Assembly: GCA_945910005.1 (NCBI GenBank)
Contig: OX246740.1
Location: forward strand, 56,103,221 to 56,167,220
Direction of reading: 5' to 3'
DNA length: 64,000 bases
From: Isoperla grammatica
Lineage: Eukaryota > Arthropoda > Insecta > Plecoptera > Perlodidae
Shown here: positions 1 to 53,043 of the stretch, one piece after another
How positions within the stretch are numbered: position 1 is the stretch's first letter
Layout: every line of letters starts with the position of its first letter
Made by a program: the position numbers and the translations under genes
Notes under the pieces: model-generated
Told to the model about the DNA's origin: nothing
Database searches by the model: none
What the model saw: the letters and a program-made list of their open reading frames with translations, nothing else

Positions 1-517
1 TGCGAGAGTGCAGCGCGCTGGGCATTAAGATGACAGACACACTGGCCTCGTACGTGGTGAGTAGATTAGACCCACCCTGCTACATTAGACATACAGCCTT
101 GAGACAGACAATGTCATCAAGAACATTATACGAGAGATACTGCGAGAGTGCAGCGCGCTGGGCATTAAGATGACAGACACACTGGCCTCGTACGTGGTGA
201 GTACATTAGACACACCCTTCTACATTAGACATACAGCCTTGAGACAGACAATGTCATCAAGAACATCATACGAGAGATACTGCGAGAGTGCAGCGCGCTG
301 GGCATTAAGATGACAGACACACTGGCCTCGTACGTGGTGAGTACATTAGACACACCCTGCTACATTAGACATACAGCCTTGAGACAGACAATGTCATCAA
401 GAACATCATACGAGAGATACTGCGAGAGTGCAGCGCGCTGGGCATTAAGATGACAGACACACTGGCCTCGTTCGTGGTGAGTACATTAGACACACCCCTC
501 TACATTAGACATACAGC
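1..517 (+). repeat. 140-bp tandem array of a whole CFAP206 exon plus mini-intron
   Basis: The 140-bp unit is an 89-nt exon plus a 51-nt intron (gtgagt...gagacag). Complete exon copies lie at 108-196, 248-336 and 388-476; a truncated copy runs off the left edge (1-56). Each copy keeps its own acceptor and donor. All encode the same peptide, with near-identical sequence (Y to F in the last copy). The exon is 89 nt, so splicing two copies together shifts frame and meets a TGA near the end of the second copy. Only one copy can be used productively; the last is taken here. The array probably continues upstream. Confidence 0.93.
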
Positions 518-3500
518 CCGCTGCGGGGGGGGGGGGGGATGTGCCATGTCCTCCCCCCACCACGGTCATCACGTGTGTTTCAGATCCGGCTCCTCGTGGC
601 GAACCCCGACTACGGCTTCATCGAGGACAAAGACAAACCGCTACAACGAGAGGATGTCGAGAAGTTGGTAGCCTTGTGCGTGAGCAAACTCTCTGAGCGC
701 AACTCTCCGTCTCTCTCTACCATCAAGATGCAGGTAGGCTTATGTCTCTCTAGGTTTCTAGGTAGGTTTCGTTAGCCTTAATCCCGCCTTTCAATCAATC
801 TCGCTCCCTCTCTCTGTCACTCACTCTACCAGGTCATACTTGGCCTAAAACAACCTTACATATGCTGAGTTAGTGATTCGTGCCCAGCCAGCGACCCCTC
901 ATTTCTAATATCGATCGCTGATTGGCCAAGTTCTTCCCGCGCGAGGTGCAGAGTGTATGGTTAGAGTGTTTGTTACACTTGCACCAGGTGTACTTCGGGA
1001 GCAGCTTCTGCCCGCGCGAGGTGCAGATCACCGCATGGCTAGAGTGTTTGTTGTACTTGCACCCTGCAGGTGTACTTCGGGAGCAGCTTCCGCCCGCGCG
1101 AGGTGCAGATCACCGCATGGTTAGAGTGTTTGTTGTACTTGCACCCTGCAGGTGTACTTCGGGAGCAGCTTCCCCCCGCGCGAGGTGCAGAGTGTATGGT
1201 TAGAGTGTTTGTTGTACTTGCACCAGGTGTACTTCGGGAGCAGCTTCCCCCCGCGCGAGGTGCAGAGTGCATGGCTAGAGTGTTTGTTGTACTTGCACCA
1301 GGTGTACTTCGGGAGCAGCTTCCCCCCGCGCGAGGTGCAGAGTGCATGGCTAGAGTGTTTGTTGTACTTGCACCAGGTGTACTTCGGGAGCAGCTTCCCC
1401 CCGCGCGAGGTGCAGAGTGCATGGCTAGAGTGTTTGTTGTACTTGCACCAGGTGTACTTCGGGAGCAGCTTCCGCCCGCGCGAGGTGCAGAGTGCATGGC
1501 TAGAGTGTTTGTTGTACTTGCACCCTGCAGGTGTACTTCGGGAGCAGCTTCCCCCGCGCGAGGTGCAGAGTGCATGGCTAGAGTGTTTGTTGTACTTGCA
1601 CCAGGTGTACTTCGGGAGCAGCTTCCCCCCGCGCGAGGTGCAGAGTGCATGGCTAGAGTGTTTGTTGTACTTGCAACAGGTGTACTTCGGGAGCAGCTTC
1701 CCCCCGCGCGAGGTGCAGAGTGCATGGCTAGAGTGTTTGTTGTACTTGCACCAGGTGTACTTCGGGAGCAGCTTCCCCCCACGCGAGGTGCAGATCGCAG
1801 AGAACCGAGAGGGCATTCAGACGCGCGTCTTCCCGCTCATCAAGGAGATAGTCGAGACCAACAGTAAGACCCAGGAGGACCTTGAGAAACTCTACAGGAA
1901 GATGATCGTCGCGATTATCCTCTCGTCGGGGCTGGGCAACCCCACTATCTACCCGGTGCTGAGGGAAGCCACAGGTGGGTGCACGATAAATAAAATAAAT
2001 AAATAAATTCACATTTAGAGTCTACCCACTCAGTAATTGATTTGCAGTGGAGGACTTTAATTTAAAGTGACTAAACCAACCCTGTAGGCTTCGAACACCA
2101 TCGACGAGTGAGCGATACCCAAATCAAAGATCGATATTTCAAATACGAAACATATGAATCAGTGATTGGACAGTGCGAACACCTGCGGACAAATGCCAGA
2201 ATCAACAAGGCAGATTCAAGACAACTTTGAATTTATTGAGTGCTTCGTTGCTAGGACGGCTCCAAAGTCACCGTTTACTTATTTCTAAGTCAAGAAGTAA
2301 TGGAATTGAATCCACATTAGAAGTTAAAAAAACTTCTGCCTGCAGCGGGATTTGAACCCGGGACCTTCTGCATTGGAAGCAGGGATGCTAACCACTGGAC
2401 CAACGAGCCACTATCAGCAACCCCACTCTCTAAATAAATAAAAAATAAATAATAAAACATAATAAATAGCTTTCGTGCACATCATTTGCTATGCCTTCAT
2501 TCTTCTCATACGGTCTTCATCACCTTTCCTTTTCAAACCAACTATCACATTCCCCTTCTATACCCTTGCCGGCTCTCCTTGCGATCTGAACGCCTCCCCC
2601 TCCCCTGATATATGATGATATGATGATATGATGATATGATATATGACCTAGCTGTCGAGTAGCTACCTCCTAAAACACCAAATACTAACTAGGTACTAAC
2701 TAATTATCCTCTTCATCTGAGCCTCTCTAGCTGGTCTTATGCCCGACTGGTTCATCCATTGGCCCCCTTGTTACAGTGGCCCCCAGTTCCTAAGAGCTGA
2801 GACAGTCCATGTCCCTCACCCTTGTATGTCTCACCCCTTATTACAGTGGCCCTGCAGAGTGTGTTCCCGGCCTCGGAACTGGGACAGTTCATGTCCCTCA
2901 CCCTTGTATGTCTCACCTCATGTTACAGTGGCCCTGCAGAGTGTGTTCCCGGCCTCGGAACTGGGACAGTTCATGTCCCTCACCCTTGTATGTCTCACCT
3001 CATGTTACAGTGGCCCTGCAGAGTGTGTTCCCGGCCTCGGAACTGGGACAGTTCATGTCCCTGACGAAGCGAGAGAAGGAGCAGCAGATGGTCGAACTGA
3101 CGCAGATTGTCACCGGTATCAGACTGTTCAACCGGGACTGTCAGAAGGGAGGGGAGGGGATAGACGACCGTAAGTCTGCGTTAATAAACGAGCAACTCAG
3201 AGTTTAGTAGCACACTTTTATGTGCGTTTCAAATAATTTTGTAATTTAAATTTAAATTTAATTTTAATTTAAATATAAAAATAATCTTCAATTTACAAAT
3301 ATATTCCCAGCCAGAAAGTGTTTGTATATAATTAAACCAAACAAATGGACTCTATATCCGTGTCGGCATTGTGTAAATTGACCCTTTCAAAATAATATCT
3401 CAGATCGCTTATTAGGCTATATCGAGGGTAATAATACCGCCAAAAAATGTTTGCCTCCGGCGTCTACCCCTTACTGGCCACGCAGGCTACGCAGAATACT

Positions 3501-6500
3501 TGGGCATCCCCCCCTCTGCCAAGCCGTCAATTCGCACCCTACTTACAATACTATTATCAATACATGGAATTACACATTTAAATGTTACAAAACACCTATG
3601 ATAGTTCCTTATAGAGTAAGAGAGTGAAATGTCTTTAACTTACTCTGTGTGAGTTATCCATTGTGAAGCACGTAGCACCTGTTGACATTGAACTGCACCG
3701 ACCAAAACACTACTGCATAGTTAGTTGCACTGCGAGCGACCACGTAGGTTCATGGCGAGCCGATACACTAATACTAATACAACTCAGTCTGTCTTGTTTA
3801 CGTGAGTGACGCTGACGTAGCTGACAACGGGGCGAGGTCTTATCTCCACATAAGTGGAGACGATTGTGTGAGAATGAGAAGTGCAGGGGTTTCCAAAACA
3901 AAAAAGTAAACACAATTTCCCTGACCATTCAACGCTCGGCGTTCCGACTCTTAAAATAAATTAGCACATAATTTTAGAAACTTAAAAGTGAAATCTAACA
4001 TTTTTATTATTATAATATATAGATAGATTTAACATTATAAATAGATTATGATTTTTTTTAAATGGTCTCTACAGGATTCTTCGAATACTGCCGCTTTGTG
4101 GCACAACAAAATTTCACAAAAAAAGGGGGGGGGGGGGCGGTCGAGGGACTTCTTGCGGTTTACTTACGTAAAACAACAGTTTATTTCTCTACGCTTTGGT
4201 ACAAACAGAAACGAAGTATGTAGATTTTTGTGCATGTAGTTTGAGTTTATTACAAAAGTACTGCACGCCGGACATTCAGTGTGGTTTTCTGACCTGCACA
4301 TGTATAATAATAATTTTTGTAGGAATACCCGTTCTAGGGGCACACCAGCTTTCCTGATGTGCCCCTCTTCAGGCGACTAACTAGGTTATTAGGGTGTTTG
4401 GATAGTTGGGAAGGATTGTCCGAGGGCTGATAGTATGACTCAATCCCAGCATTCGCTTTTACGACTGAGGAACACCTCGGAAAAAACCTTCAGTCAGGAC
4501 TGCCGGTGGCCGGAATCGAACCGGCGACTTCCCGAATTAGAGTCTCGCGTCTTACCGCTGAGCCATATCGATCGGTAACATGTATATGTACCATATCAGT
4601 CCCCCAGACTCTGCAAATGGCGTTGACGGCGACCCAGGACACTCTACAGAGCGGCCTAAAGAAGTTGATGGGGAGGACGGACATCCTCTCAGCGGCCGCT
4701 GACGCCATCGTCAGCAAGCTGATGGGGTGGACGACGCGCGAGGGGACGGAAGAGGGCGACGAGGAACCAGGAGAGGCGGTGCAAGATGAAGAGAAGGACG
4801 AGGAGGCGAAGCAGCGAGAAGAGATATACGTGAACCTTGTCAAGGGAGAACTGATCTTGGCGAGACAAATGGAGGTGTACATCAGGTAAACCTTTGGGAC
4901 ACTTGTACAGTACAGAACCCGGCTTTATCAACACCCCTTCTCCGGGCGCATCGTTCGTCAGTTATGTGAAGACAGCAATGACGAGATTGCAGGTCTAACT
5001 TTTAAAAACTTAGTCCTTGGTGGACATTGACATTCTAAGCTTAACGTATTATTATTATTTACTTCGCCGAACACGCTCTAAGCCTCTAACTTTAGCGCAG
5101 GATTATTTCAAGACTTGAACAGAAAACTCTATAAAGTAGATGGGAGGAGAAGAAAGCAACACAATTGAAAGGGCGTAGGTCTACGTACGCAAGTCCTGGG
5201 CTCTTTATAGGCAAACCACTTACCTTGGTTGCTTTGCTGATGGCCTTAACTTAGAGGATTAGCGAAGTAGCCTGAAGTGGTGTTGATATAAAATACATCT
5301 ATATTTATTCTTTACTACGTATATAGGCCTACGTCCTGATTTACTTATATCGTAGCTCGTGGGGTGACCACGCGTCAACCGTATACTCGTGTTCCAGGAA
5401 GTTGCTGGCGTCTGTGGTTGTGTCGCGGACCCGAAGAAGTGTCGATACAACAGAATATATCTTTACTACTTGTGTCGCAGGGTGTCGTGTAGATATCATG
5501 TGACCTCACTTCTGTCGTGTTCCAGAAAGTTGCTGGCGTCTGTGGTTGTCTCCCAGGACAGCGTGACAGAGTTGCTGGAGCGTCTTCAGACGAGGCTGCT
5601 GCAGATACACGACACTGTCAGGTTCCGAACCGCGATACCGACAGTCCAGGTCTACGTACGTATCCCCCCCCCCCCCCCCCCCACCCTTCAAACACCCCTC
5701 GACGTGCACAACAAAACGTCAACACTTCGTTCTATGTCCTCAAGTCTTGCGAAAAGTAGTCACACATAGTAGCAGTAACTTGTGCCTTTATTGTTGTTAA
5801 ACATTATTTATTAGTCATTGTTGTTGCTTAAAGTAGTAGTTAGTAAACTTGACAAGAATGCATCTATCATGATCATTTTGTTATTATTAAAATGACATAT
5901 AGAATTATGAAAGGTGTTGGTATACCATCAGAATGGAGACAGAAGAAATGTTGTAATTAACAACCATACAATTAAAATAAGTTGATCAATTAAGAGTAAA
6001 TTATTTTCAAACATTAACAAGTGGATACAAAAAAAATATAATGTATTTTTCAAATTTCAGCCACAATTCATTGATCTGTCTGATATCTGGACGAACCTTC
6101 AGGACGAGATGGTCCTGCTGAGCATTATCAACAACACCGCGTGGACCCTGCAGACCTTCAGCACGGTGAGTGGACCAACACGTGAGATCCACCCCTAGTT
6201 AAGGGAGTGACTTGAGCACCCAACGCGTAACATATAAGAGATCCACCCCTATAATCAAACCCTAGTTAACTACACGTGATCATCGTACCATGCAGGTAAG
6301 TTGTCGCCAAGTAGAGCCGTGTTCATCAACCAATGCATCAAACTATGTTTCAAGTGCTGGACTATGTTTCAGGTGCTGGACTATGTCCCGATGAGCGTGT
6401 TGAAGGATCTGGACTATGTTTCAGGTGCTGGACTATGTCCCGATGAGCGTGTTGAAGGACCTGGACTATGTTTCAGGTGCTGGACTATGTCCCGATGAGC

Positions 6501-9190
6501 GTGTTGAAGGATCTGGACTATGTTTCAGGTGCTGGACTATGTCCCGATGAGCGTGTTGAAGGATCTGGACTATGTTTCAGGTGCTGGACTATGTCCCGAT
6601 GAGCGTGTTGAAGGATCTGGACTATGTTTCAGGTGCTGGACTATGTCCCGATGAGCGTGTTGAAGGATCTGGACTATGTTTCAGGTGCTGGACTATGTCC
6701 CGATGAGCGTGTTGAAGGATCTGGACTATGTTTCAGGTGCTGGACTATGTTTCAGGTGCTGGACTATGTCCCGATGAGCGTGTTGAAGGATCTGGACTAT
6801 GTTTCAGGTGCTGGACTATGTCCCGATGAGCGTGTTGAAGGACCTGGACTATGTTTCAGGTGCTGGACTATGTCCCGATGAGAGTGTTGAAGGATCTGGA
6901 CTATGTTTCAGGTGCTGGACTATGTCCCGATGAGCGTGTTGAAGGACCTGGACTATGTTTCAGGTGCTGGACTATGTCCCTATGAGCGTGTTGAAGGATC
7001 TGGACTATGTTTCATGTACTAGACTATGTTTAAGGTGCTGGACTATGTCCCGATGAGCGTGTTGAAGGATCTGGACTATGTTTCAGGTGCTGGACTATGT
7101 CCCGATGAGCGTGTTGAAGGATCTGGACTATGTTTCATGTACTGGACTATGTTTCAGGTGCTGGACTATGTCACGATGAGCGTGTTGAAGGATCTGGACT
7201 ATGTTTCAGGTGCTGGACTATGTCCCGATGAGCGTGCTGCACGACCTGGTCGGGAAAACCCCCATAATGACAGACGAAGAACGCATCGAGGCTACGACGG
7301 GCTACGAGCTTTGTGTCACCGAGGATATGGATCCAGCGTTGGAGATAATCGAGCCGCAACAGATTACCAGCCTCGAAGACTTCCCGCTGCAGGTACGTAC
7401 TTTACGACGTACTTTACGACTTACGAAGCTTCTCTGAGCATTACTATACACTGTTGCGGAATCCACAATTTGTCTTAATCTTTCTTAATGTAGCCATGAA
7501 TGTATTAACATAGTCACAATTTGGAAACTAAAAAACATTTCCAATCAATAACAAAGTTATTCTGTTGTGTTTGCCAGTACCTGGGTTTCTGCCCGTGGAT
7601 AATAGTGCACGGCACCAGCACCCTCATCCCCGCCAACCCCAACATGGGCATCTGTCGCTGGAAGGACAAGTTCTATGCGTTCTCGTCCGTGCAAGCTGGC
7701 ACCGAGTTCTGCCTGAATCCCGACTGGTAGGCTACTGTACATTGCTCGTCCAAAACAGTTTGTACCACATTATGTACCGACCGTTCACCGAGTGGCTTCA
7801 CCCGTTCTCACCCCAGTCTTGTCACCTCCGTCCACTCTTGTTTTAGAAGAGTCAATCTCCAAATTGATATGCCCGATCATACAGTACCCTATCTTCTCTA
7901 AGTCGCATAGCACTCTCTCTATAACCAGCTGCCGAGCAATTTTAAAATAAAAAATGTCTCCCTCCAATTCATCCTTCAAGCCTAATGTCAAATCCTACCT
8001 TAATTCTGAAACCTTCTCTGCCCGACCTGATAACAGATCAAGGGTTTATAATATGAACAGACTCCCTTTCTCCTGGTGAACAACCGAGTTCTAAATTATT
8101 TAACTTCAATGTACCATTTATATTTTATATTTCATACTAATTTCATTAATTAATACTGCTGCTATTCACATTTTCTCAAACAACGTACGTGTAAGTCAAG
8201 ACGAATTGACGATGACGCTAGCGCTACATATTCCGCAGGTACATATCCAAAGCGCTGACGATCGCAAGGAAGGAGCCAGAGCTGATCCAACTGTTGCAGC
8301 TTCAGGAGCAAGTCGACGAAGTCAAGTTGCACGGAGAGTAAGTACAGTGCCTGACGGTTCTCGTCGCATCGCTCGGATCAGATCAAACAATCATGTGTTG
8401 CTTTCTTCCGTCGACAGCGCGCGCGCAAAGGAACTGGAAACAGTGGCGACCAGCGAGATAGACATCCAGACCGAAACTCATCCGATAGAGACCTACATAG
8501 ACCCCGAGTATACGTGGAACATTTGGGAGCTTAAACGACGAGCCCTGCAGTTGGTACGGTCACAATCATTGTTTACGCTTTATTGACTGCTATTTTCCAA
8601 TAAGTGTACAGTACTATGTTTTATTTTAATGGTAGTTGATTCCATCTTAACAATAATCCATACATTGTGTGAACCAACACTAATATGGTAAAAAAAGTTC
8701 TAAATTAATGGTGAGTATAATTAAATCTGCACTGACATTTTGCCAACTGTATTGCACAATGCAGAGGCTATAGAATGGTCAGAGCATAGGTAAATCTGGA
8801 ATACAACTTTAAACCATATCAATGCATTTCTGTGTCGAATGTACCGCATAACCTACACTGAAAATAATAATAATACAATTCCAAATTGAGCTGAATTTTT
8901 ACAAAATAATCTTGTGTCAAAAAAATGATGAAAACCAATTGTATAAACACGTTTCAATGTTAACCCAGGCGAACATCAGCAAGTGTAAGACGCACAGCAC
9001 CCAAACCGTGCGCAGCAACTTCCGCAGGGGGGTTTACATCCAAGCGGCACCCGATAAGACTAAGGGAACTCAGACCAAGAAAGATGCCGCGACCAACGTC
9101 CCGACGCTGATTAACTACATCTACGGTCTGCGTGGACGAACAGACGACAAGCAGCGAGTCATCACTCTCACCAGGCCGGTTCACGAGTGA
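388..9190 (+). CDS. CFAP206: CFAP206, cilia- and flagella-associated protein 206, 12 exons, N-terminus cut by window edge
   Basis: Exons: 388-476, 584-733, 1755-1974, 3011-3169, 4600-4885, 5526-5655, 6061-6165, 7210-7392, 7578-7726, 8239-8337, 8418-8553, 8969-9190 (TGA at 9188). Every junction is AG/GT and all phases join, giving 641 residues against about 622 in the human protein. Conserved stretches are seen in order: REILRECSALG (exon 1), NSPSLSTIKMQ (2), LEKLYRKM and SSGLGNPT (3), TGIRLFNRDCQKGGEGIDD (4), DLPQTLQMALTATQ across the exon 4/5 join, AIPTVQVYPQFIDLSDIW across 6/7, the PANPNMGICRWKDKFYAF block (9), EPELIQLLQL (10), WELKRRALQL (11), and THSTQT, GTQT and YIYGLRG (12). Known for the family: an axonemal protein at the base of radial spoke 2 that helps dock spoke and dynein c, so ciliary motility is the likely role. 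The initiator Met is not in the window. Exon 5 has an acidic lysine-rich insert (about 4740-4820) absent from the human protein as I remember it. Confidence 0.95.
869..931. repeat. Diverged CCAAT-core foldback element
   Basis: Sequence resembles the foldback family best seen at 35369-35466: gtgattcgtg...ccagcga, a tatttctaat-like centre, then cgctgattggcca. It lies in CFAP206 intron 2 just upstream of the exon 3 array. Confidence 0.5.
940..1793 (+). repeat. 75-82-bp minisatellite spanning the exon 3 acceptor of CFAP206
   Basis: The unit is the first 39 nt of exon 3 (encoding VYFGSSFPPREVQ) followed by about 36 nt ending in the acceptor ttgcaccag. Exon-start copies begin at 988, 1070, 1152, 1227, 1302, 1377, 1452, 1531, 1605, 1680 and 1755; only the last continues into the conserved remainder of exon 3. 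Spacings are 82, 82, 75, 75, 75, 75, 79, 74, 75, 75. The +1 and -1 irregular units at 1452 and 1531 cancel, so the frame from 1152 to the exon stays open. Some units carry an extra ccctgcag before the junction. Confidence 0.93.
1983..2412 (-). mobile_element. SINE family 1, full length, tRNA-derived head
   Basis: On the minus strand the head starts near 2412 (ggctcgttggtccagtgg), with an A-box-like TGGTCCAGTGGTTAGC and B box GGTTCAAATCC. The anticodon arm is CTGC-TTCCAAT-GCAG; parentage is Gly- or Trp-like and unresolved. A body of about 340 bp follows, then a TTTATT-rich tail at about 1985-2007. The body is shared with 16590-16850 and the head with 53755-53897. It sits in CFAP206 intron 3. 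Confidence 0.85.
2597..2645. repeat. ATGATGAT/ATATGATG short tandem repeat
   Basis: A run of tatgatga units in CFAP206 intron 3. No other signal seen. Confidence 0.8.
2772..3062 (+). repeat. 82-bp minisatellite spanning the exon 4 acceptor of CFAP206
   Basis: Acceptor tgttacag plus the first ~54 nt of exon 4 (VALQSVFPASELGQFMSLT) is repeated with starts at 2847, 2929 and 3011, and a diverged copy at 2777. The period is 82, not a multiple of three. Use of any but the last acceptor would therefore shift the frame. Only the copy at 3011 continues into conserved KREKEQQ sequence. Confidence 0.9.
4303..4574 (-). mobile_element. SINE family 2, tRNA-Lys-derived, full length
   Basis: Minus-strand head near 4574: tggctcagcggtaagacg (A box), gactctaattcggg (cf. 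GACTCTTAATC of tRNA-Lys), B box GGTTCGATTCC. The body contains the ctgaaggttttttccgagg-like segment, the aatgctgggattgagtc segment and ggggcacatcaggaaagctg; the tail is ATTATTATT. Sister copies: 49683-49985 and 52781-53043 (+). The insertion ends only about 25 nt before the exon 5 acceptor of CFAP206. Confidence 0.87.
5388..5421 (+). repeat. Single duplicated copy of the exon 6 acceptor and exon start
   Basis: A 34-nt stretch from cgtgttccag onward matches the true junction at 5516-5549 with one mismatch. It includes the acceptor and the start of the exon (KLLASVVV). The two are 128 bp apart, with unrelated sequence between. Splicing here would read into an in-frame TGA before the real exon, so it is a decoy acceptor. 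Confidence 0.85.
6345..7250 (+). repeat. 52-bp minisatellite spanning the exon 8 acceptor of CFAP206
   Basis: The unit is the first ~35 nt of exon 8 (VLDYVPMSVL) plus a short tail ending ctatgtttcag. Copies begin at 6373, 6425, 6477 and so on every 52 bp to the true exon start at 7210, about 16-17 units. One internal 17-bp partial unit lies near 6737-6754, and there are scattered changes (for example ttcatgtact near 7010 and 7135). Every unit presents CAG next to GTG. The period is not a multiple of three, and upstream units read into CGA-TGA stops, so only the last acceptor yields CFAP206. Confidence 0.93.
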
Positions 9191-11276: not shown

Positions 11277-13927
11277 TTAGTCGATGAAGTGATTTTTCAG
11301 GTACTTCATCATTCCAAATGTGCGGAAACGTTTTACACCTTAAAACACAGAAGAAAACACCAATTAAAACTTTAACAGGTAAAACACACAACACACAGTA
11401 CCAACTAACAAGTTTATTCCAAGAATACAACTACATACTACTACTCTACTATTACAAGTCAATCGTTCAACCAAAAACGGTGATGGGACTGCAAAGACAG
11501 AACATATTTCACATTCATACAGGTCTAATTTCAAAGGAAGCGCAACGTATACGTACCGAAGACTTTGAGTAGCTCGTCGTCGCAGATGGCAAACTGTTTG
11601 TTCTTGGGGTCGTAGAGGTTTCGCTCCTTGATGATGGCCCAGACCTTCCTGACGACCTCGTGGCGCGCCATGGAGTCCTGTCCCACCACCGCAGCCAGCT
11701 CGGGGGTGAGGGTGTAGGCTTTCGTGTACCCGCCCGCCTTCTTGGGCTGCAAACAATACACCCTCTTAGCACGCGCATCAAACTTTGATAAATTGTAAAT
11801 AAACTGTCACGAAAAGTTCGAGCAGAGATTTTCTCTCGACTCTTGCTGCTAGATTTTGTCTAGAAAATTGTGAATTAATTCAAGATTTACGGAGTAATTT
11901 ACAATTTATCCTGTGATTAGAACACTTTAATTAAAGCAACATTTATGTTGTAGGTTTAAAATGAACAAAGTTGACAAAGCTAGTTGTTATCATGATCCAT
12001 CTAAAAATTCTAGAATCACATCGGCTAATAAAGCGAAGGCGGTCTTACCCCACCGGACTTCTTGGTAGCGCTGCCGCCGCCCCCTCCACCCCCGCTCTTT
12101 CTCTTGGACTTGTTCCAGTCCTCGTCACTGTCTCCGTCGCTCCCCTTCCCCTTCTTCTTGCCTGGCTTCCCCTTCTTGGGCGACCCCCCCTTCGCCTTCT
12201 TCGCCGGGCTGTAGTCGTCGTCACTCGCATCCTAGACAGAACACACGTTGTAGATACGCATCACATCGGACAGGCCTAGCAGTGGGACATTCCAACGCAG
12301 CATTCGTCCTCCAGTTTTGGAAGGAAAAAAACGTGTTTATTTAGACCTAAGACAAACAATTAGGGGCATTGAAATAGATGTAAATGATTTTTTTAAACCA
12401 AATTTTGCAGAATGCAATGAAAACAATATTTGAAACAAAGGCACCACTAGGGACAATTAAATCATGCAGTTACATTCATGACTGATTTTAATTTTAAAGG
12501 TAAGTTAAACAAAACTTATTTTTCTGGTAGGCTAGGTAAATTTGAAGACAATCACAAGTTTTAAATTTATATATTTAAGTCCTATAAATATTAAGTGTAA
12601 GAACTATTTTTATGAATTATTCAAATTGTTGCGAACTTTACTTTTCCTACCTCATCGGACCCTTCTTCGCTGTCGCTGTTGGCTTTCTTGGCACGTTTAT
12701 TCGAAGCCGCCGGCTTCTTGGCTCCTCGCTTGGCCTTGGGTTTCTCCTCTTCTTCGTCGTCTTCCTCCTCCTCCTCATCTTCTTCCTCCTCAGGTTCATC
12801 ATCGTCCTCTTCCTTCTTGAGCTTCTTCTTTGTTCCGTTGTCCTTGGAACCCTTGGTCTCCTTCTCCTGTTGCTCCTGCAGACACTTCATGACGAGGTCG
12901 TCCACCTCTTTCTTGCGGTCTGTCAGGTCAATCTCGAGCTGCTCCTCCAGCAGCGTTCTCACCCGTTTGGCGGACATTGTGTTGAGGTCGGCATCCTGCA
13001 GGATCCCTGGGGAGCAACAACGTTGGCATCACAACCACGTAGCCTAACCACACTTTTGAAGTGAAAAATGTAGCATACAAAATATTTCCACTTAGCCCAC
13101 ACGACAAGTTACATTCAAGTAGGCTAGGCATAAGAAAATTAATTAAGCTCATGATTGCTATTTTATAAGCCTTATGTCAGTCCCAAGGTACTAGGCCTTA
13201 CCCTTTCAGCTAGTAGGCTGTGTAACTATGTGAACTTCAATGCCTAGGGCCTAGCTAAGCCTAGCAATATTTTCATTTTTCCATACTGAAATATTATTGA
13301 CTAGGCCTCCAAATTTAATAATTTAATTATAAAGGACTGAAGTCTAGCATCGTTTTATGGTAGGTGTACTTTTCAGATTTGGTCCTAGGTAAACAAAGGT
13401 TCAAGCCTAGACCTAGCATTCAAGGTAAGCGGGTTTGGACGGCTCTGGTGACATCATTGACATGTACACTCCTAGGCCACACTAGGGCCTTGGGTCCTCT
13501 CCGACACCAGTCAACAATACACCTATATTCTCCGTCCTTGGAATTTTCCAGGTAGAAAACAATATGAGAATACATAAATAATACGTTTAGAAGTCTGCTA
13601 CTTCTAACGGTATCGATAGAAATGGTGTATTTTCAGAGGTATTTGAATTCAAATACAGGTTTGACGGGACTGAATCCCGTTTGGCGTCATGAAGCTGTGA
13701 GTAGCCATTTAGAATGTATCAAAACAAGCAACGAAATTTTCCAAAGTACAAGAGTAAAATAAAAGAATTCCCTATTAGACCCATGCTATTTTTTGGTACT
13801 AAAAGATTCCTTAATTTTTTTCTAGTCGGATTCAATCAAAAGTTGAAGTTAGGATGCAGCTAATAAAAAGATTTATCAAATTACCGGTAATTTCCTTTCG
13901 GAGCTCTTCCTTGGAGATATCTGCCAT
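11277..13927 (-). CDS. DEK_C and SWIB domain protein (UAF30/TRI1/spp27-like), 277 aa, five exons
   Basis: Exons in transcript order: 13927-13885, 13006-12651, 12231-12049, 11746-11557, 11338-11277 (stop 11277-11279). Total 834 nt with all phases joining. The start MADISKEELRKEIT begins a DEK_C fold (about residues 3-58, ILQDADLNTMSAKRVRTLLE). A Glu/Asp run follows (80-102), then Lys-rich tracts, an Asp-Ser-rich acidic segment and seven consecutive glycines in exon 3. The C-terminal SWIB/MDM2 domain (about 198-277) shows YTLTPELAAVVG, MARHEVVRKVWAIIKE, NLYDPKNKQ and KVFGVKRFRTFGMMKYL. Family knowledge: such proteins act in nuclear chromatin and transcription; yeast UAF30 helps RNA polymerase I initiation at rDNA. 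The animal function is inferred only. It runs convergent to CFAP206 and has no exon-boundary arrays. Confidence 0.92.
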
Positions 13928-16589: not shown

Positions 16590-16850
16590 TTAAATAAAAT
16601 AAAATAAATTCACATTCAGAGTCTACCCACTCAGTAACGAAACTGATTTGCAGTGGGGGACTTTAATTTAAAGTGACTAAACCAACCCTGTAGGCTCCAA
16701 ACACCATTGACGAGTGAGCGATAACCAATCAAAGATCGATATTTCTAATACGAAACAAATGAATCAGTGATCGGACAGGAGGAACACCTGCGGACAAATG
16801 CCAGAATCAACAAGGCTGATTCAGAACAACTTTGAATTTATTGAGTGCTA
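16590..16850 (-). mobile_element. SINE family 1, 5'-truncated copy (body and tail only)
   Basis: Closely matches 1985-2255, including ttcacatt-agagtctaccc, gactttaatttaaagtgac and gaacacctgcggacaaatg. The tRNA head is missing: the match stops at tttattgagtgct. Tail taaataaaataaaataaa at the plus-strand left end. Confidence 0.85.
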
Positions 16851-21424: not shown

Positions 21425-21518
21425 TCGTCATAGACCAGTGACTCGTGACCAACCAGCGATCGGTATTTGAAATTGGGGCTCGCTGATTGGTCAGATGACT
21501 CGTCTGTGAGGTTGTTTG
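21425..21518. mobile_element. CCAAT-core foldback element (MITE-like)
   Basis: Left arm cgttcgtcatagaccagtg...cgtgaccaaccagcgatcgg; right arm cgctgattggtcagatgac...gtctgtgag. The arms are imperfect inverted repeats, and it matches the element at 35369-35466. Confidence 0.7.
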
Positions 21519-25936: not shown

Positions 25937-28533
25937 AAGAGACGGCGCCCTACTTTCACCCTCGTCGTCCCGCTTAGCCTCGTTGCATGAAGACAGCGCC
26001 CTACTTTCCACCCTCGTCGTCCCGCTTAGCCTCGTTGCATGAAGACAGCGCCCTACTTTCCACCCTCGTCGTCCCGCTTAGCCTCGTTGCATGAAGACAG
26101 CGCCCTACTTTCCACCCTCGTCGTCCCGCTTAGCCTCGTTGCATGAAGACAGCGCCCTACTTTCCACCCTCGTCATCCCGCTTAGCCTCGTTGCATGAAG
26201 ACAGCGCCCTACTTTCCACCCTCGTCATCCCGCTTAGCCTCGTTGCATGAAGACAGCGCCCTACTTTCCACCCTCGTCGTCCCGCTTAGCCTCGTTGCAT
26301 GAAGACAGCGCCCTACTTCCACCCTCGTCGTCTCGCTTAGCCTCGTTGCATGAAGACAGCGCCCTACTTTCCACCCTCGTCGTCTCGCTTAGCCTCGTTG
26401 CATGAAGACAGCGCCCTACTTTCCACCCTCGTCGTCCCGCTTAGCCTCGTTGCATGAAGACAGCGCCCTACTTTCCACCCTCGTCATCCCGCTTAGCCTC
26501 GTTGCATGAAGACAGCGCCTTACTTTCCACCCTCGTCGTCCCGCTTAGCCTCGTTGCATGAAGACAGCGCCCTACTTTCACCCTTGCCGTCTCGCTTAGC
26601 CTCGTTGCATGAAGACAGCGCCCTACTTTCCACCCTCGTCGTCCCGCTTAGCCTCGTTGCATGAAGACAGCGCCCTACTTTCCACCCTCGTCATCCCGCT
26701 TAGCCTCGTTGCATGAAGACAGCGCCTTACTTTCCACCCTCGTCGTCCCGCTTAGCCTCGTTGCATGAAGACAGCGCCCTACTTTCCACCCTCGTCGTCC
26801 CGCTTAGCCTCGTTGCATGAAGACAGCGCCCTACTTTCCACCCTCGTCGTCCCGCTTAGCCTCGTTGCATGAAGACAGCGCCCTACTTTCCACCCTCGTC
26901 GTCCCGCTTAGCCTCGTTGCATGAAGACAGCGCCCTACTTTCCACCCTCGTCGTCCCGCTTAGCCTCGTTGCATGAAGACAGCGCCCTACTTTCCACCCT
27001 CGTCGTCCCGCTTAGCCTCGTTGCATGAAGACAGCGCCCTACTTTCCACCCTCGTCGTCCCGCTTAGCCTCGTTGCATGAAGACAGCGCCCTACTTTCCA
27101 CCCTCGTCGTCCCGCTTAGCCTCGTTGCATGAAGACAGCGCCCTACTTTCCACCCTCGTCGTCCCGCTTAGCCTCGTTGCATGAAGACAGCGCCCTACTT
27201 TCCACCCTCGTCGTCCCGCTTAGCCTCGTTGCATGAAGACAGCGCCCTACTTTACACCCTCGTCGTCCCGCTTAGCCTCGTTGCATGAAGACAGCGCCCT
27301 ACTTTCCACCCTTGCCGTCTCGCTTAGCCTCGTTGCATGAAGACAGCGCCCTACTTTCCACCCTCGTCGTCCCGCTTAGCCTCGTTGCATGAAGACAGCG
27401 CCCTACTTTCCACCCTCGTCGTCCCGCTTAGCCTCGTTGCATGAAGACAGCGCCCTACTTTCCACCCTCGTCGTCCCGCTTAGCCTCGTTGCATGAAGAC
27501 AGCGCCCTACTTTCCACCCTCGTCGTCCCGCTTAGCCTCGTTGCATGAAGACAGCGCCCTACTTTACACCCTCGTCGTCCCGCTTAGCCTCGTTGCATGA
27601 AGACAGCGCCCTACTTTCCACCCTCGTCGTCCCGCTTAGCCTCGTTGCATGAAGACAGCGCCCTACTTTCCACCCTCGTCATCCCGCTTAGCCTCGTTGC
27701 ATGAAGACAGCGCCCTACTTTCCACCCTCGTCGTCCCGCTTAGCCTCGTTGCATGAAGACAGCGCCCTACTTTCCACCCTCGTCGTCCCGCTTAGCCTCG
27801 TTGCATGAAGACAGCGCCCTACTTTCCACCCTCGTCGTCCCGCTTAGCCTCGTTGCATGAAGACAGCGCCCTACTTTCCACCCTCGTCATCCCGCTTAGC
27901 CTCGTTGCATGAAGACAGCGCCCTACTTTCCACCCTCGTCGTCCCGCTTAGCCTCGTTGCATGAAGAAAGCGCCCTACTTTCCACCCTCGTCGTCCCGCT
28001 TAGCCTCGTTGCATGAAGACAGCGCCCTACTTTCCACCCTCGTCGTCCCGCTTAGCCTCGTTGCATGAAGACAGCGCCCTACTTTCCACCCTCGTCGTCC
28101 CGCTTAGCCTCGTTGCATGAAGACAGCGCCCTACTTTCCACCCTCGTCGTCCCGCTTAGCCTCGTTGCATGAAGACAGCGCCCTACTTTCCACCCTCGTC
28201 GTCCCGCTTAGCCTCGTTGCATGAAGACAGCGCCCTACTTTCCACCCTCGTCGTCCCGCTTAGCCTCGTTGCATGGAGACAGCGCCCTACTTTCCACCCT
28301 CGTCGTCCCGCTTAGCCTCGTTGCATGAAGACAGCGCCCTACTTTCCACCCTCGTCGTCCCGCTTAGCCTCGTTGCATGAAGACAGCGCCCTACTTTCCA
28401 CCCTCGTCGTCCCGCTTAGCCTCGTTGCATGAAGACAGCGCCCTACTTTCCACCCTCGTCGTCCCGCTTAGCCTCGTTGCATGAAGACAGCGCCCTACTT
28501 TCCACCCTCGTCGTCCCGCTTAGCCTCGTTGCA
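25937..28533. repeat. 52-bp satellite array, about 50 copies
   Basis: The unit reads cgttgcatgaagacagcg, then ccctactttccaccctcg, then tcgtcccgcttagcct. The period is exactly 52, with very low divergence. Recurrent variants are cgtcatcccg, gccttac, cttgccgtctcg, tttacaccc and gcatggag. The first unit is degraded (gataagagacggcg). No long open frame and no gene inside. Confidence 0.98.
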
Positions 28534-35368: not shown

Positions 35369-35466
35369 GCTTTCGTTACAGACGAGTGGTTCGTGACCAA
35401 TCAGCGATCAGTATTTGTAATGGGGCCTCACTGATTGGCCACGAATCACTTATCTGTGACGAAAGC
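35369..35466. mobile_element. CCAAT-core foldback element (MITE-like), best copy
   Basis: Terminal inverted repeats of about 38 bp with a few mismatches: gctttcgttacagacgagtg...gaccaatcag, and ctgattggccacgaatcac...gtgacgaaagc. Total 98 bp. No clear target-site duplication. Both arms carry CCAATCAG in opposite orientation. Confidence 0.85.
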
Positions 35467-35469
35467 ATC

Positions 35470-37600
35470 TGTAAGGTAGATTTGGGACAAGTATACATAC
35501 CTTCACTTTATAAATTCTTGGAAGGGTCCAAGGTGGGGGGGAAGTTCTTTGCAGCAATATGGAATTGAGTGAGAATTTGAGATAATCGCTTTTATGGGAT
35601 AGTATCGTATAGTTATAGTACCAACTTTTAATTGCGCAAATTGTAAAATACTACTGTGTAGAAGTATAGACTATAGAGTATGTGATGGAATGACTGTGCT
35701 AGCATGGAATGGCAACTCCCGATGTCATATTATGTAGCTCTTCTCTAAAACACGGAGTAGAGTTATTCACGACCGCTGCAAAACTGGGACGCTTGCAAAA
35801 CGAACCACGAACATTTCTCTCTGCACGAAATACAAATGTGCGCTTGTTTTGTTTGGACATGAACCGAAAGTTCTATCTTTGGCCACAAGCAAATATACTC
35901 TAAGCCAAACTAAACAATATTTACAAACGATTGACGGTATGCATACGATTAAATGTTTTTTGGAGACTTAGATGAAACTAAAGAATATTACAATAATTTG
36001 AGGGCAAATATGTAGGAAATATAAGATCACACAAGTATGTTGAAATGAGAATAAGCAATCCATGAAATATGGACGTGTAGATGAAAGGAATGATGCTAAG
36101 ATGATGACTGGAGGGCAGTTTACGATGCTAACAAGACACACATAGGTGTTACGTTGGGTGTAATAATTTACATAAGCGATCTCAAACATCTTCGCGGTTT
36201 CATGAAGAAACATAAATTACTGATTTACATATTATGAAAGTATGATAAGGTTTTAATCCGAACGAACTATTAAAATCTATTAAAACCCGTTTTCTCAACG
36301 TTAAAGAATCAAAGCTTCGGCACTTGTCCAAGCGTTTACAGAGTGGCGTAGCTTGAATGGGCTTGTAAGTTAGTGACGAGTGGCAACAGCGCTCGCTCAT
36401 GATGGTGAGTGGTGACTGTGTTGTTACATCTACAAATGGATCCTTCATCAATAGCATAAGGGGACACTAGACAACAGCCGAGTGTGATTATGAGTCCAGT
36501 ACACACATTAATTGAAACTAAGAATAAGGGTGACTTTTATTTGGATGCAAAAAATAAGTATAATTTTAACATTGGTTGATTTTCAAGGCTTCAGCCTCAG
36601 CGAATAATGTAATAAGATACAGTTAACAATATGACAAAGTGAAAGATTGTTTATAAAACGATATAGGAAATATATTGCAGATAATCAAGAAAATGTTATG
36701 AAAACTGTAAACTACTGTATACAAGTGCAAAATAATATATATCTATATGTATCTGCATGTATATAGGGAGAGTAGTATTGTAAGCCAAGTAAATATATTC
36801 TACTGCCAGTACTACATATAACATTGCAGCCACCTGTTGGCTCCATTTAGGCCCGAATACACAGATGTCCTCTCATGAGATATAACAACGTATCCACATA
36901 GCAACCACCGTCCTAGGCCTTGGCTTGTTGTAGTAGTACGTGTATAGCGTAGCCTACTCCACGTAAGATATAATAATCAACAACAGAATCATACTCGCAT
37001 TAGTTATAGAAAGTAATCGCAGCACATTCTTGCTATCTAGCGTTTTAAAGGGGTTGAATTACAGTTGGTACGTGACGTAGGTAGCAATGTACTATCAACA
37101 GGTTGGCGCTCTACTCTGTATCGCAGGGAAACTGAGGAGAGCGAGGGGAAGAGGTAGGTTGAGATGAGAGGAAAACTAACGTTGAACGGACACTCACACT
37201 GATTTTACGAGAGGGGAAATTTTAATTTCAAAACTTAAAAAAAAATGTGTAACATTAGTTTTGGTAACAAGTTTTGAATTTTTTTGAAGACTTTTTAATA
37301 TACAGTAGTAGTCTCGTAGTATCTCGAAGCTACATTACCAGCGATCGATATAATGTACTATATATTTTACTACGCATCATTACTGTATATACTAACACTA
37401 AACAGCCACGTGGATTGGATGCAACTACGACTTTATCCCGTTCCAGCTCCACGACATTCCTACCTTAGTCTGTCTCTCCCTCAACACTCCAGTATGTCAG
37501 ACTCGGGTCTCCTGCCCACAACCCCTTACAACTTCACAAGCAAGATTTTTTCATGAGGAGGATATCATCGGCTGCAGAGAGGTTTATCTTATGGGTCCAA
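35470..37600. other. Gene-free AT-rich stretch
   Basis: No exon, RNA gene or repeat supported. Confidence 0.4.
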
Positions 37601-37620: not shown

Positions 37621-37735
37621 ACTCAATCCCAGCATTGGCTTCATGACTGAAGAAGACCCTCGGAAAACCCTTCAGCCAGGATTGCCGGCGGCCGGAATCG
37701 AGCCTGTAACCTCTGAGGCAATCTTACTGATGAGG
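37621..37735 (-). mobile_element. SINE family 2, partial diverged copy
   Basis: Shares ctcaatcccagcatt, gactgaagaagaccctcgga, aacccttcagccaggattgc and cggccggaatcgagcc with the copy at 4303-4574. The tail part is missing and the tRNA head is scrambled. Confidence 0.75.
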
Positions 37736-39284: not shown

Positions 39285-42200
39285 TGCACGGTCACTTACA
39301 TTCAGTCACGTGGGCCCGTGGTGGTTGGGGTAGGTCGTGAGCGAGCGAGAGCATTCATGCTACTGCGCCACGTTACATTCAGTCACGTGGGCCCGTGGTT
39401 GTTGGGGTAGGTCGTGAGCGAGCAAAGGCATTCATGCAACTGCGCCACGTTACATTCAGTCACGTGGGCCCGTGGTTGTTGGGGTAGGTCGTGAGCGAGC
39501 GAGGGCATTCATGCTACTGCGCCACGTTACATTCAGTCACGTGGGCCCGTGGTTGTTGGGGTAGGTCGTGAGCGAGCGCAGGCATTCATGCTACTGCGCC
39601 ACGTTACATTCAGTCACGTGGGCCCGTGGTTGTTGGGGTAGGTCGTGAGCGAGCGCAGGCATTCATGCTACTGCGCCACGTTACATTCAGTCACGTGGGC
39701 CCGTGGTTGTTGGGGTAGGTCGTGAGCGAGCAAGGCATTCATGCTACTGCGCCACGTTACATTCAGTCACGTGGGCCCGTGGTTGTTGGGGTAGGTCGTG
39801 AGCGAGCGAGGGCATTCATGCTACTGCGCCACGTTACATTCAGTCACGTGGGCCCGTGGTTGTTGGGGTAGGTCGTGAGCGAGCGAGGGCATTCATGCTA
39901 CTGCGCCACGTTACATTCAGTCACGTGGGCCCGTGGTTGTTGGGGTAGGTCGTGAGCGAGCGAGGGCATTCATGCTACTGCGCCACGTTACATTCAGTCA
40001 CGTGGGCCCGTGGTTGTTGGGGTAGGTCGTGAGCGAGCGGGGGCATTCATGCTACTGCGCCACGTTACATTCAGTCACGTGGGCCCGTGGTTGTTGGGGT
40101 AGGTCGTGAGCGAGCGAGGGCATTCATGCTACTGCGCCACGTTACATTCAGTCACGTGGGCCCGTGGTTGTTGGGGTAGGTCGTGAGCGAGCGAGGGCAT
40201 TCATGCTACTGCGCCACGTTACATTCAGTCACGTGGGCCCGTGGTTGTTGGGGTAGGTCGTGAGCGAGCGAGGGCATTCATGCTACTGCGCCACGTTACA
40301 TTCAGTCACGTGGGCCCGTGGTTGTTGGGGTAGGTCGTGAGCGAGCGAGGGCATTCATGCTACTGCGCCACGTTACATTCAGTCACGTGGGCCCGTGGTT
40401 GTTGGGGTAGGTCGTGAGCGAGCGAGGGCATTCATGCTACTGCGCCACGTTACATTCAGTCACGTGGGCCCGTGGTTGTTGGGGTAGGTCGTGAGCGAGC
40501 GAGGGCATTCATGCTACTGCGCCACGTTACATTCAGTCACGTGGGCCCGTGGTTGTTGGGGTAGGTCGTGAGCGAGCGAGGGCATTCATGCTACTGCGCC
40601 ACGTTACATTCAGTCACGTGGGCCCGTGGTTGTTGGGGTAGGTCGTGAGCGAGCGAGGGCATTCATGCTACTGCGCCACGTTACATTCAGTCACGTGGGC
40701 CCGTGGTTGTTGGGGTAGGTCGTGAGCGAGCGAGGGCATTCATGCTACTGCGCCACGTTACATTCAGTCACGTGGGCCCGTGGTTGTTGGGGTAGGTCGT
40801 GAGCGAGCGAGGGCATTCATGCTACTGCGCCACGTTACATTCAGTCACGTGGGCCCGTGGTTGTTGGGGTAGGTCGTGAGCGAGCGCAGGCATTCATGCT
40901 ACTGCGCCACGTTACATTCAGTCACGTGGGCCCGTGGTTGTTGGGGTAGGTCATGAGCGAGCGAGGGCATTCATGCTACTGCGCCACGTTACATTCAGTC
41001 ACGTGGGCCCGTGGTTGTTGGGGTAGGTCGTGAGCGAGCAAAGGCATTCATGCAACTGCGCCACGTTACATTCAGTCACGTGGGCCCGTGGTTGTTGGGG
41101 TAGGTCGTGAGCGAGCGAGGGCATTCATGCAACTGCGCCACGTTACATTCAGTCACGTGGGCCCGTGGTTGTTGGGGTAGGTCGTGAGCGAGCGAGGGCA
41201 TTCATGCTACTGCGCCACGTTACATTCAGTCACGTGGGCCCGTGGTTGTTGGGGTAGGTCGTGAGCGAGCAAGGCATTCATGCTACTGCGCCACGTTACA
41301 TTCAGTCACGTGGGCCCGTGGTTGTTGGGGTAGGTCGACAGCGAGCGAGGGCATTCATGCTACTGCGCCACGTTACATTCAGTCACGTGGGCCCGTGGTT
41401 GTTGGGGTAGGTCGTGAGCGAGCGAGGGCATTCATGCTACTGCGCCACGTTACATTCAGTCACGTGGGCCCGTGGTTGTTGGGGTAGGTCGTGAGCGAGC
41501 GAGGGCATTCATGCTACTGCGCCACGTTACATTCAGTCACGTGGGCCCGTGGTTGTTGGGGTAGGTCGTGAGCGAGCGAGGGCATTCATGCTACTGCGCC
41601 ACGTTACATTCAGTCACGTGGGCCCGTGGTTGTTGGGGTAGGTCGTGAGCGAGCGAGGGCATTCATGCTACTGCGCCACGTTACATTCAGTCACGTGGGC
41701 CCGTGGTTGTTGGGGTAGGTCGTGAGCGAGCGAGGGCATTCATGCTACTGCGCCACGTTACATTCAGTCACGTGGCCCCGTGGTTGTTGGGGTAGGTCGT
41801 GAGCGAGCGAGGGCATTCATGCAACTGCGCCACGTTACATTCAGTCACGTGGGCCCGTGGTTGTTGGGGTAGGTCGTGAGCGAGCGAGGGCATTCATGCT
41901 ACTGCGCCACGTTACATTCAGTCACGTGGGCCCGTGGTTGTTGGGGTAGGTCGAGCGAGCGAGCGAGGGCATTCATGCAACTGCGCCACGTTACATTCAG
42001 TCACGTGGGCCCGTGGTTGTTGGGGTAGGTCGTGAGCGAGCGAGGGCATTCATGCTACTGCGCCACGTTACATTCAGTCACGTGGGCCCGTGGTTGTTGG
42101 GGTAGGTCGACAGCGAGCGAGGACATTCATGCTACTGCGCCACGTTACATTCAGTCACGTGGGCCCGTGGTTGTTGGGGTAGGTCGTGAGCGAGCGAGGG

Positions 42201-49682: not shown

Positions 49683-49985
49683 CCGATAGATATGGGTAGC
49701 TCTGCGTCAAGGCAAGACGTCAGACTCTTAATTCGGGAGGTCGCCGGTTTGATTCCAGCCACCGGCAATCCTGGCTGAAGTTATCCACCGAGGTTTTCCT
49801 CAGTCGTAAAGGCGAATGCTGGGATCGAGTCCTGCTAACATACCTCGGATATTCCTTCTCAACTCAACTATATCCAAACACCCCAACATACCTATAGTTT
49901 GTCACCTGTGGAGGGGCACATCAGGTAAAGCTGTTGTTGTGCACCCTGTAACAAGTATTCCTACGGCCAATTATTATTTACCACT
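49683..49985 (+). mobile_element. SINE family 2, full-length copy
   Basis: Head ggtagctctgcg...cagactcttaattcgggagg (close to tRNA-Lys anticodon arm), B box GGTTTGATTCC, body with gtaaaggcgaatgctgggatc, gaggggcacatcaggtaaag and gtgcaccctgtaac, tail aattattattta. Confidence 0.88.
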
Positions 49986-52432: not shown

Positions 52433-52780
52433 ACAAGGATCCTGTGGAACGACTGTATGTTTGTTACAACATTTAGCTAAGACCCACCAGTGAGGTGGGA
52501 GGGAAGAGACCCCCCCCCCCCCTCCACTCTCAAGGGTCTGCCACTGAGTCAGGTTTAGACAAGAAGGTTAGCTTCCACCATGAGTTCAATTATTGATATA
52601 ACCGACAGTCAAAACCGAAAGAAGTAAGTGTGGCTTTCCCAAGTTTTCCTTGAATAATTTACAGAATTAATTCTAAAACAGTTCTCGTGCATGATGCATC
52701 AACCACCCTAAGCTAATTGTTTTCCCAGCTGTGAATTCGGTATTAAATATTAATACAATGCGATGCAACATTGGAGACCG

Positions 52781-53043
52781 ATCCATGTGGCCCAGCGGTA
52801 GCACGAGAGACTCAATTCGTGAGGTCGTCGGTTCGATGCCGGCCAACGGCAATCCAGACTGAAGGTTTTAGGAGGTCTCCTCAAGTCACAAGGTGAATGC
52901 TGTGATAGAGTTCTACTTACAGCCCTTGGACATTCCTCCCCATCTATTCCAAATTTTACACACACAGTCGCCTGAAGAGGGACACCCAAGTAAAGCTGGT
53001 GGGCACCCCACATCAGAGATTCCTTAAACATTATTATTTTATT
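52781..53043 (+). mobile_element. SINE family 2, full-length copy
   Basis: Head tggcccagcggtagcacg (A box), agactcaattcgtgagg, B box GGTTCGATGCC, body with actgaaggtttt, gtgaatgctgtgatagag and gaagagggacacccaagtaa, tail attattttatt. Confidence 0.87.

Follow-up and report, generated by a model that had tools for sequence, protein, structure and literature searches.

The gene CFAP206, which lies at the start of a 64,000-nucleotide stretch of contig OX246740.1 of Isoperla grammatica (Plecoptera; positions 56,103,221 to 56,167,220 of the forward strand, hereafter the window), carries at five of its exon boundaries repeated copies of the boundary itself, in units built partly of coding and partly of intron sequence. 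Arrays of this type are probably mirage-type minisatellites, of the kind described in amphioxus, here in an insect, and would result from local duplication rich in guanine and cytosine (GC), a selective filter and homogenisation of the copies.

Tandem copies of exon boundaries in CFAP206

A scan for local repeats, filtered for low complexity, returned five blocks in CFAP206, each overlapping an exon edge, and none besides these five: four acceptor arrays (exons 3, 4, 6 and 8) and one donor array (exon 1). The initial annotation of the window had given periods and coordinates for these arrays, which were confirmed (140, 75-82 and 82 bp, one 35-38 bp copy, and 52 bp), and it had rightly described the units at separate junctions as unrelated. 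It had also stated that exons 1, 3, 4, 6 and 8 are each preceded by copies of their junction, which held for exons 3, 4, 6 and 8 and failed for exon 1. The 10 kb fetched directly upstream of the window (L009) showed the 140-bp array running upstream to an ATG exon, and the notion that exon 1 is the last copy of this array was dropped: the true exon 1 stands at the array's 5' end and is followed by 21 donor copies.

The exon 1 array thus consists of 22 copies over ~3.07 kb, starting at L009:7447 with the true exon as first copy, and its unit joins the 3' ~100 nt of exon 1, the GTGAGT donor and ~40 nt of intron. All acceptor arrays hold an intron tail, the AG and the exon start, the unit comprising ~40 nt of exon and ~35 nt of intron at exon 3, and 12 nt of intron and 40 nt of exon at exon 8. 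An additional copy on the upstream side of the exon 4 array (~2764-2846) is degenerate and older, and the extra copy of the exon 6 junction is found 128 bp upstream of the real one (5387 vs 5515). At exon 8, the 7-bp word ACTATGT starts 12 bp before the junction and recurs at exon base 8. A 28-base pattern from the exon 8 unit had 13 exact matches in the genome, every one at the CFAP206 locus (one assembly, 874,298,753 bases in 603 contigs). The local-repeat scan detected no array at the donors of exons 2-11. Tandem Repeats Finder reported extra short or AT-rich intron repeats at 2431-2468, 2606-2646, 3231-3301 and 7395-7424; the last, a 12 bp x 2.5 repeat a few bases into intron 8, adjoins the exon 8 donor and contains no exon sequence. 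A dispersed element (836-928) ends a few bases before the exon 3 array and may have landed in or beside it, and ~2 kb upstream of exon 1 there is a 117-bp x 5 array (L009:4776-5360) whose unit has a splice-acceptor-like sequence.

The reading frame singles out one copy in most of the arrays. At exon 1 it stays open from donor 1 only (1/22), and the acceptor belonging to the real exon is alone in leaving it open at exon 4 (1/3), exon 6 (1/2) and exon 8 (1/15), exon 3 being the exception, with 8 of 11 acceptors in an open frame. Many unused acceptors match the used one over the last 25 intron bases (5 of the 10 upstream copies at exon 3, 1 of 2 at exon 4, 8 of 14 at exon 8, and 0 of 1 at exon 6), so that in three arrays those bases cannot mark the last copy. 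Where they are identical, the choice would have to come either from exon context, that is, exon definition as described in PMC3488318, or from messenger RNA (mRNA) surveillance removing the wrong products; we infer that the full exon is chosen through exon definition. With just 12 nt of intron in the exon 8 unit, any branch point close to the final acceptor would have to be located in exon-derived sequence.

Differences between the exons and their repeat units are concentrated away from the junctions. In the five arrays, 15 of 16 such differences, which were listed by hand and cut off where exon similarity ends, lie in the half farther from the junction (p = 3e-5, test on mean distance), and the exon 1 donor array shows the mirrored pattern, its five coding differences all falling within the 5' 37 of 100 nt. 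All 14 units of exon 8 have AAG (lysine) at a position where the exon has CAC (histidine); since 6 of 10 other insects also have lysine there, the units appear to retain the older state. The overall pattern agrees with homogenisation that takes in the coding bases beside the junction and weakens towards the edge of the array, as is likewise described for the amphioxus globin arrays in PMC3087553.

Arrays in dynein, myosin and kinesin genes

The sample taken elsewhere in the assembly covered two gene families, dynein heavy chain (PF12774) and myosin head (PF00063). When each was selected, nothing was known of any arrays in its genes; myosin was picked once arrays in the dyneins had come to light. 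The loci were the 30 best of 56 dynein matches (3 intronless ones dropped) and the 30 best of 85 myosin matches; after merging of overlaps they gave 32 stretches (137,965 bp) with 19 arrays and 103 exons, nine tblastn clusters that were array copies having been removed from an original 112, and with two ends for each exon there were 206 junctions. Exon edges in the sample are alignment edges, accurate to some 10-20 nt. Most arrays were classed by eye on the sequence, and by coordinates alone in the case of both L049 arrays, the 51-bp array of L025, L061 and the longer array of L038. Overlapping blocks in L018 and in L038 were each counted once, a block of 17-bp units in L024 (2592-2638, with no exon recognised there) was excluded from the 19, and the 19-bp array of L034 was retained.

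Between 6 (strict set: L019, L030, L050, L052, L025 and L034) and 9 of the 19 arrays span a junction, five at acceptors and four at donors, three of the donor arrays being marginal (Table 1); the other 10 are confined to introns. Among arrays lying near exons, inspection showed the two in L024 to be intronic, and likewise that of L015, which stops 18 nt short of the AG. Two kinesin genes (L076 and L077) had shown repeated exon starts in their match rows, and on the DNA these proved to be acceptor arrays, one of 7 copies of 152 bp and one of 2 copies of 161 bp. Having been found in this way, they are not counted in the sample statistics; in the kinesin match rows, read by eye, no array at a donor was seen. 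The exon parts of the L076 and L077 units finish at nearly the same residue. Unit lengths in these other genes range from 19 to 161 bp.

Placement of the 19 arrays at random within the same stretches yielded, under a uniform null, an expectation of 2.44 junction-spanning arrays (1.17 acceptor, 1.18 donor; 2.4-2.7 without GC matching), with probabilities of 1e-4 for at least 9, 8e-4 for at least 8 and 0.021 for at least 6 (strict). Mean GC content is 0.494 in arrays, 0.501 in exons and 0.395 in the whole sample, and in a GC-matched null without wholly exonic placements the expectation rose to 4.4 of 19, compared with the 6-9 observed, p being 0.044 for 8 arrays and 0.26 for the strict 6. For CFAP206, the probability that all four acceptor arrays would fall at acceptors only was 3e-5 with uniform placement, 8e-5 with placements not wholly exonic, 2.4e-4 at a GC content of at least 0.48, and 0.075 on condition that every one of them spans a junction; that of four arrays at any junction was about 0.03 under the GC-matched, non-exonic null. 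These CFAP206 tests were made post hoc on the collapsed sequence of one gene, with the exon 1 donor array left out, and the statistics as a whole come from small samples, some post hoc tests and approximate sample exon edges.

Two further features of these families were noted. A kinesin-motor fragment (profile hidden Markov model positions 1-94 or 1-147) is present in dozens of dispersed copies, mostly on contig C15, where several form inverted pairs ~2 kb apart, which suggests a piece of a gene that has been amplified or transposed. Among the dynein heavy chains, three copies (L040-L045; C9:10.17 Mb, C5:110.79 Mb and C5:59.01 Mb) have very long frames without interruption (3945, 4498 and 2287 codons) and, unlike their multi-exon paralogues, are possibly retrocopies.

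Origin of the arrays

The sequence of events that we favour would begin, in a genome where GC-rich tandem repeats form readily, with the local duplication of a segment of ~20-160 bp, probably produced by slippage or by repair at short matches, such as ACTATGT at exon 8. Duplications wholly within an exon would mostly be lost, while a copy straddling an acceptor would leave the complete exon last, and one straddling a donor would leave it first; both would be tolerated, and junction-straddling duplications would survive because one end of the array still carries an intact exon. The array would then grow and its copies homogenise together with the adjoining coding bases, a step that can be seen as a pattern in the exon-unit differences, and the spliceosome would take the acceptor or donor joined to the full exon. 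GC-rich minisatellite birth and the selective filter would in this way explain the association with junctions for the most part; a process targeted at junctions is possible but need not be invoked.

Such a targeted process, linked to transcription or splicing (e.g. R-loops or stalled repair at exon edges) and giving rise to local duplications preferentially at junctions, whichever end of the exon they lie at, would suit the fact that 5/5 CFAP206 arrays span junctions, the uniform-null excess in the sample, and the independent arrays held by near-homologous junctions of paralogous myosins and kinesins; with GC matching, however, the excess falls to a range from p = 0.26 to p = 0.013, more than half of the sampled arrays are purely intronic and large arrays also occur where no gene was found, and we regard this origin as unlikely. 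We give no more credence to its extended form, in which, in this insect lineage, transcription- or splicing-linked duplication prefers junctions, recurs at homologous junctions of paralogues and has arisen independently in two phyla; if it were true, coding exon ends would be dragged by a junction-preferring process into concerted evolution with intronic repeats. The initial annotation had proposed that the process acts on acceptors. The four CFAP206 acceptor arrays, with none at the donors of exons 2-11, and the myosin and kinesin arrays would agree with this, but the 22-copy exon 1 array and the 8-copy dynein array of L025 are clear donor arrays that contradict an acceptor-specific process, and the sample itself is split almost evenly between acceptors and donors. 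The acceptor to donor ratios were 9:5 for CFAP206 plus the sample (p = 0.42; strict 8:3, p = 0.23) and 11:5 when the kinesins were added (p = 0.21; strict 10:3, p = 0.09); they do not support acceptor specificity, and some bias towards acceptors may exist. An acceptor-specific or strongly acceptor-biased process seems quite improbable.

Functional alternative splicing, in which the copies would serve as alternative acceptors or mini-exons that vary the protein, finds some agreement at exon 3, whose 75-bp unit is in frame and where seven of the eight open acceptors would add extra repeats; exons 1, 4, 6 and 8 lose the frame with every other choice, and we hold this reading to be very improbable. 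Least probable of all is an assembly artefact, since variants, some private and some shared, are scattered over the copies, those at the edges are degenerate, and arrays of this type recur with unrelated units on several contigs, in genes for dyneins, myosins and kinesins.

Several observations nevertheless weigh against an origin of the arrays as GC-rich minisatellites that were merely filtered by selection and homogenised. The lenient count of 9/19 is still above the GC-matched expectation of 4.4 (p = 0.013). Under GC matching and non-exonic placement the four CFAP206 arrays at acceptors keep a probability of 0.002, and CFAP206 is richer in array-bearing junctions than the sample (5/22 vs 9/206, p = 0.006), which a purely random process does not predict. 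Apart from those of CFAP206 and the dyneins, every junction array that was found (two in myosins, two in kinesins) lies at an acceptor; the unrelated arrays of the myosins L050 and L052 sit at junctions that almost coincide (FGNAKTVRNDN), and the arrays of the kinesins L076 and L077 occupy a homologous motor-domain position, the start of the P-loop exon. As to homogenisation, the differences at the distal edges possibly mark in part where each duplication ended, the exon parts having been delimited by hand; at exons 1 and 8 the differences sit inside plainly homologous sequence. The coding stretches covered by arrays are no more diverged than the rest of CFAP206 (p = 0.2-1.0); no acceleration at the protein level was found under the arrays, and in the protein there is no visible trace of homogenisation. 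Finally, normal splicing of the array-bearing CFAP206 exons is a prediction, drawn from the reading frames.

The closest known system is that of the amphioxus mirages (Adh3, the globins BflGb6 and BflGb9, PGBD5 and troponin C), and the likeness to amphioxus minisatellites at exon-intron boundaries, to which the initial annotation had pointed, was borne out by the anatomy. As described in PMC3087553 and PMC3902484, mirages are tandem units of minisatellite size, part exon and part intron, at either exon boundary, which often retain AG/GT and whose edge copies escape homogenisation. The insect arrays share the part-exon, part-intron units, the size, the occurrence at either boundary and the differences at the edge, and by this anatomy they would be new members of the same kind in a new phylum. 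They differ from the amphioxus mirages in their insect host, in reaching up to 22 copies and in occupying five junctions of one gene and, compared with mirages as described, in their presence in genes for dyneins, myosins and kinesins. Normal splicing and polymorphism in length are features of the amphioxus reports; the comparison made here covers anatomy. A search of the open-access literature listed no mirage from an arthropod, which is weak evidence of absence. In the accounts of PMC3087553 and PMC3902484 mirages are described from lancelets only, and the insect cases would represent a second phylum if the phenomenon is the same; their occurrence across several insect gene families, with up to 22 copies, suggests that they are what the birth of minisatellites near exons generally leads to.

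The arrays also resemble the model of Rogers for intron gain, in which tandem duplication of an AG/GT proto-splice site makes an intron and for which Drosophila cases are given in PMC2891723, in being local tandem duplications with splice-like motifs in an insect. In that model, as PMC2891723 presents it, a duplication inside an exon makes a new intron, whereas here existing junctions are repeated. Mirages have been proposed in PMC3087553 as raw material for new introns, and the present arrays are candidate intermediates for intron gain or intron sliding; they also offer a naturally occurring case in which to see how, out of a dozen almost identical sites, the spliceosome selects one. In unit size and GC content they are similar to ordinary GC-rich minisatellites, including most other arrays of the window and the sampled intron arrays; unlike these, their units hold coding sequence and a splice site, so that part of the unit would be under selection.

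Gene structures and other repeats of the window

With the true exon 1 included, CFAP206 encodes 649 residues from ATG to stop, exons 2-12 lying inside the window on the plus strand (584-9190; Table 1). The protein is 51-54% identical to those of cockroaches, 50% to that of Anabrus (Orthoptera) and 40% to that of Branchiostoma, and a 22-row tree placed it inside the insects with a support of 100/100. Identities, tree, insect alignment and divergence comparisons used a 641-residue version that begins in an array copy, lacks the first eight residues and has F instead of Y at one residue, none of which affects the conclusions. The neighbouring SWIB/DEK-C gene serves as an internal negative control: as the initial annotation had noted, it is free of such arrays, the same local-repeat scan finding zero blocks in 11277-13927. 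Its protein is nearest to those of termite (64% identity), cricket (68%) and locust (63%). Judging from the two proteins, the genome is that of an insect near Polyneoptera, and an amphioxus origin of the CFAP206 region was ruled out by the lower Branchiostoma identity and the insect grouping. Pfam searches with 40 open reading frames (ORFs) of the window (30 of the 113 ORFs of at least 80 aa and 10 chosen by codon score) gave nothing above cut-off except the DEK-C domain of the SWIB gene, and no Rfam match in the window reached the gathering threshold.

Table 1 Features of the CFAP206 locus and neighbouring gene, and junction-spanning arrays in the dynein/myosin sample. Positions are those of the window unless preceded by L009.
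Feature	Position	Strand	Details
True CFAP206 exon 1	L009:7434-7544	+	ATG TTG AAG GCC ATT GAG ACA GAC ... GTG, then gtgagt; upstream of window
Exon 1 donor array, last 3.7 units	1..518	+	140-bp unit; rest of array lies upstream in L009
CFAP206 exon 2	584..733	+	without array
Dispersed-element copy	836..928	+	further copies 35394-35494, 21446-21493
Exon 3 acceptor array	936..1794	+	11 acceptor copies, unit 75 bp (82/79/74-bp variants)
CFAP206 exon 3	1755..1974	+	last copy of array is the real exon
Exon 4 acceptor array	2764..3062	+	three good 82-bp copies (2801-3062)
CFAP206 exon 4	3011..3169	+	
CFAP206 exon 5	4600..4885	+	without array
Extra exon 6 acceptor-junction copy	5387..5424	+	38 bp (35-38 bp), 94.7% identical
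CFAP206 exon 6	5526..5655	+	
CFAP206 exon 7	6061..6165	+	without array
Exon 8 acceptor array	6342..7249	+	15 intact acceptor copies, 52-bp unit, 19-bp sub-units
CFAP206 exon 8	7210..7392	+	final copy of array
CFAP206 exons 9-12	7578-7726, 8239-8337, 8418-8553, 8969-9190 (includes stop)	+	without arrays
SWIB/DEK-C gene (Non2/spp27-like)	11277..13927	-	5 exons, without arrays
L019, acceptor array			118 bp, 6 copies
L030, acceptor array			136 bp, 3 copies
L050 (myosin), acceptor array			58 bp, 3 copies
L052 (myosin), acceptor array			155 bp, 3 copies
L039, acceptor array			degenerate
L025 (dynein), donor array			92 bp, 8 copies; clear
L034, donor array			marginal; 19-bp units, ~10 nt exon
L018, donor array			marginal; 141 bp, 2 copies, just ~6 nt exon in unit
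L013, donor array			marginal; 71 bp, weak

The rest of the window, in which no gene was recognised, contains 13 more repeat blocks or pairs, among them arrays of 2.6 kb and 5.6 kb (25940-28533, 52 bp x 50, and 39296-44914, 77 bp x 73; GC 0.59). Reading of the edges of five of the non-genic arrays gave no clear exon, and at the edges of the 2.6-kb and 5.6-kb arrays none was recognised. A dispersed element of ~270 bp at 4303-4576 has copies at 37621-37704, 49711-49978 and 52777-53041 and a tRNA-like end, resembling by eye a short interspersed element. Another dispersed element, at 1987-2244 in CFAP206 intron 3, is 90% identical to a copy at 16591-16849.

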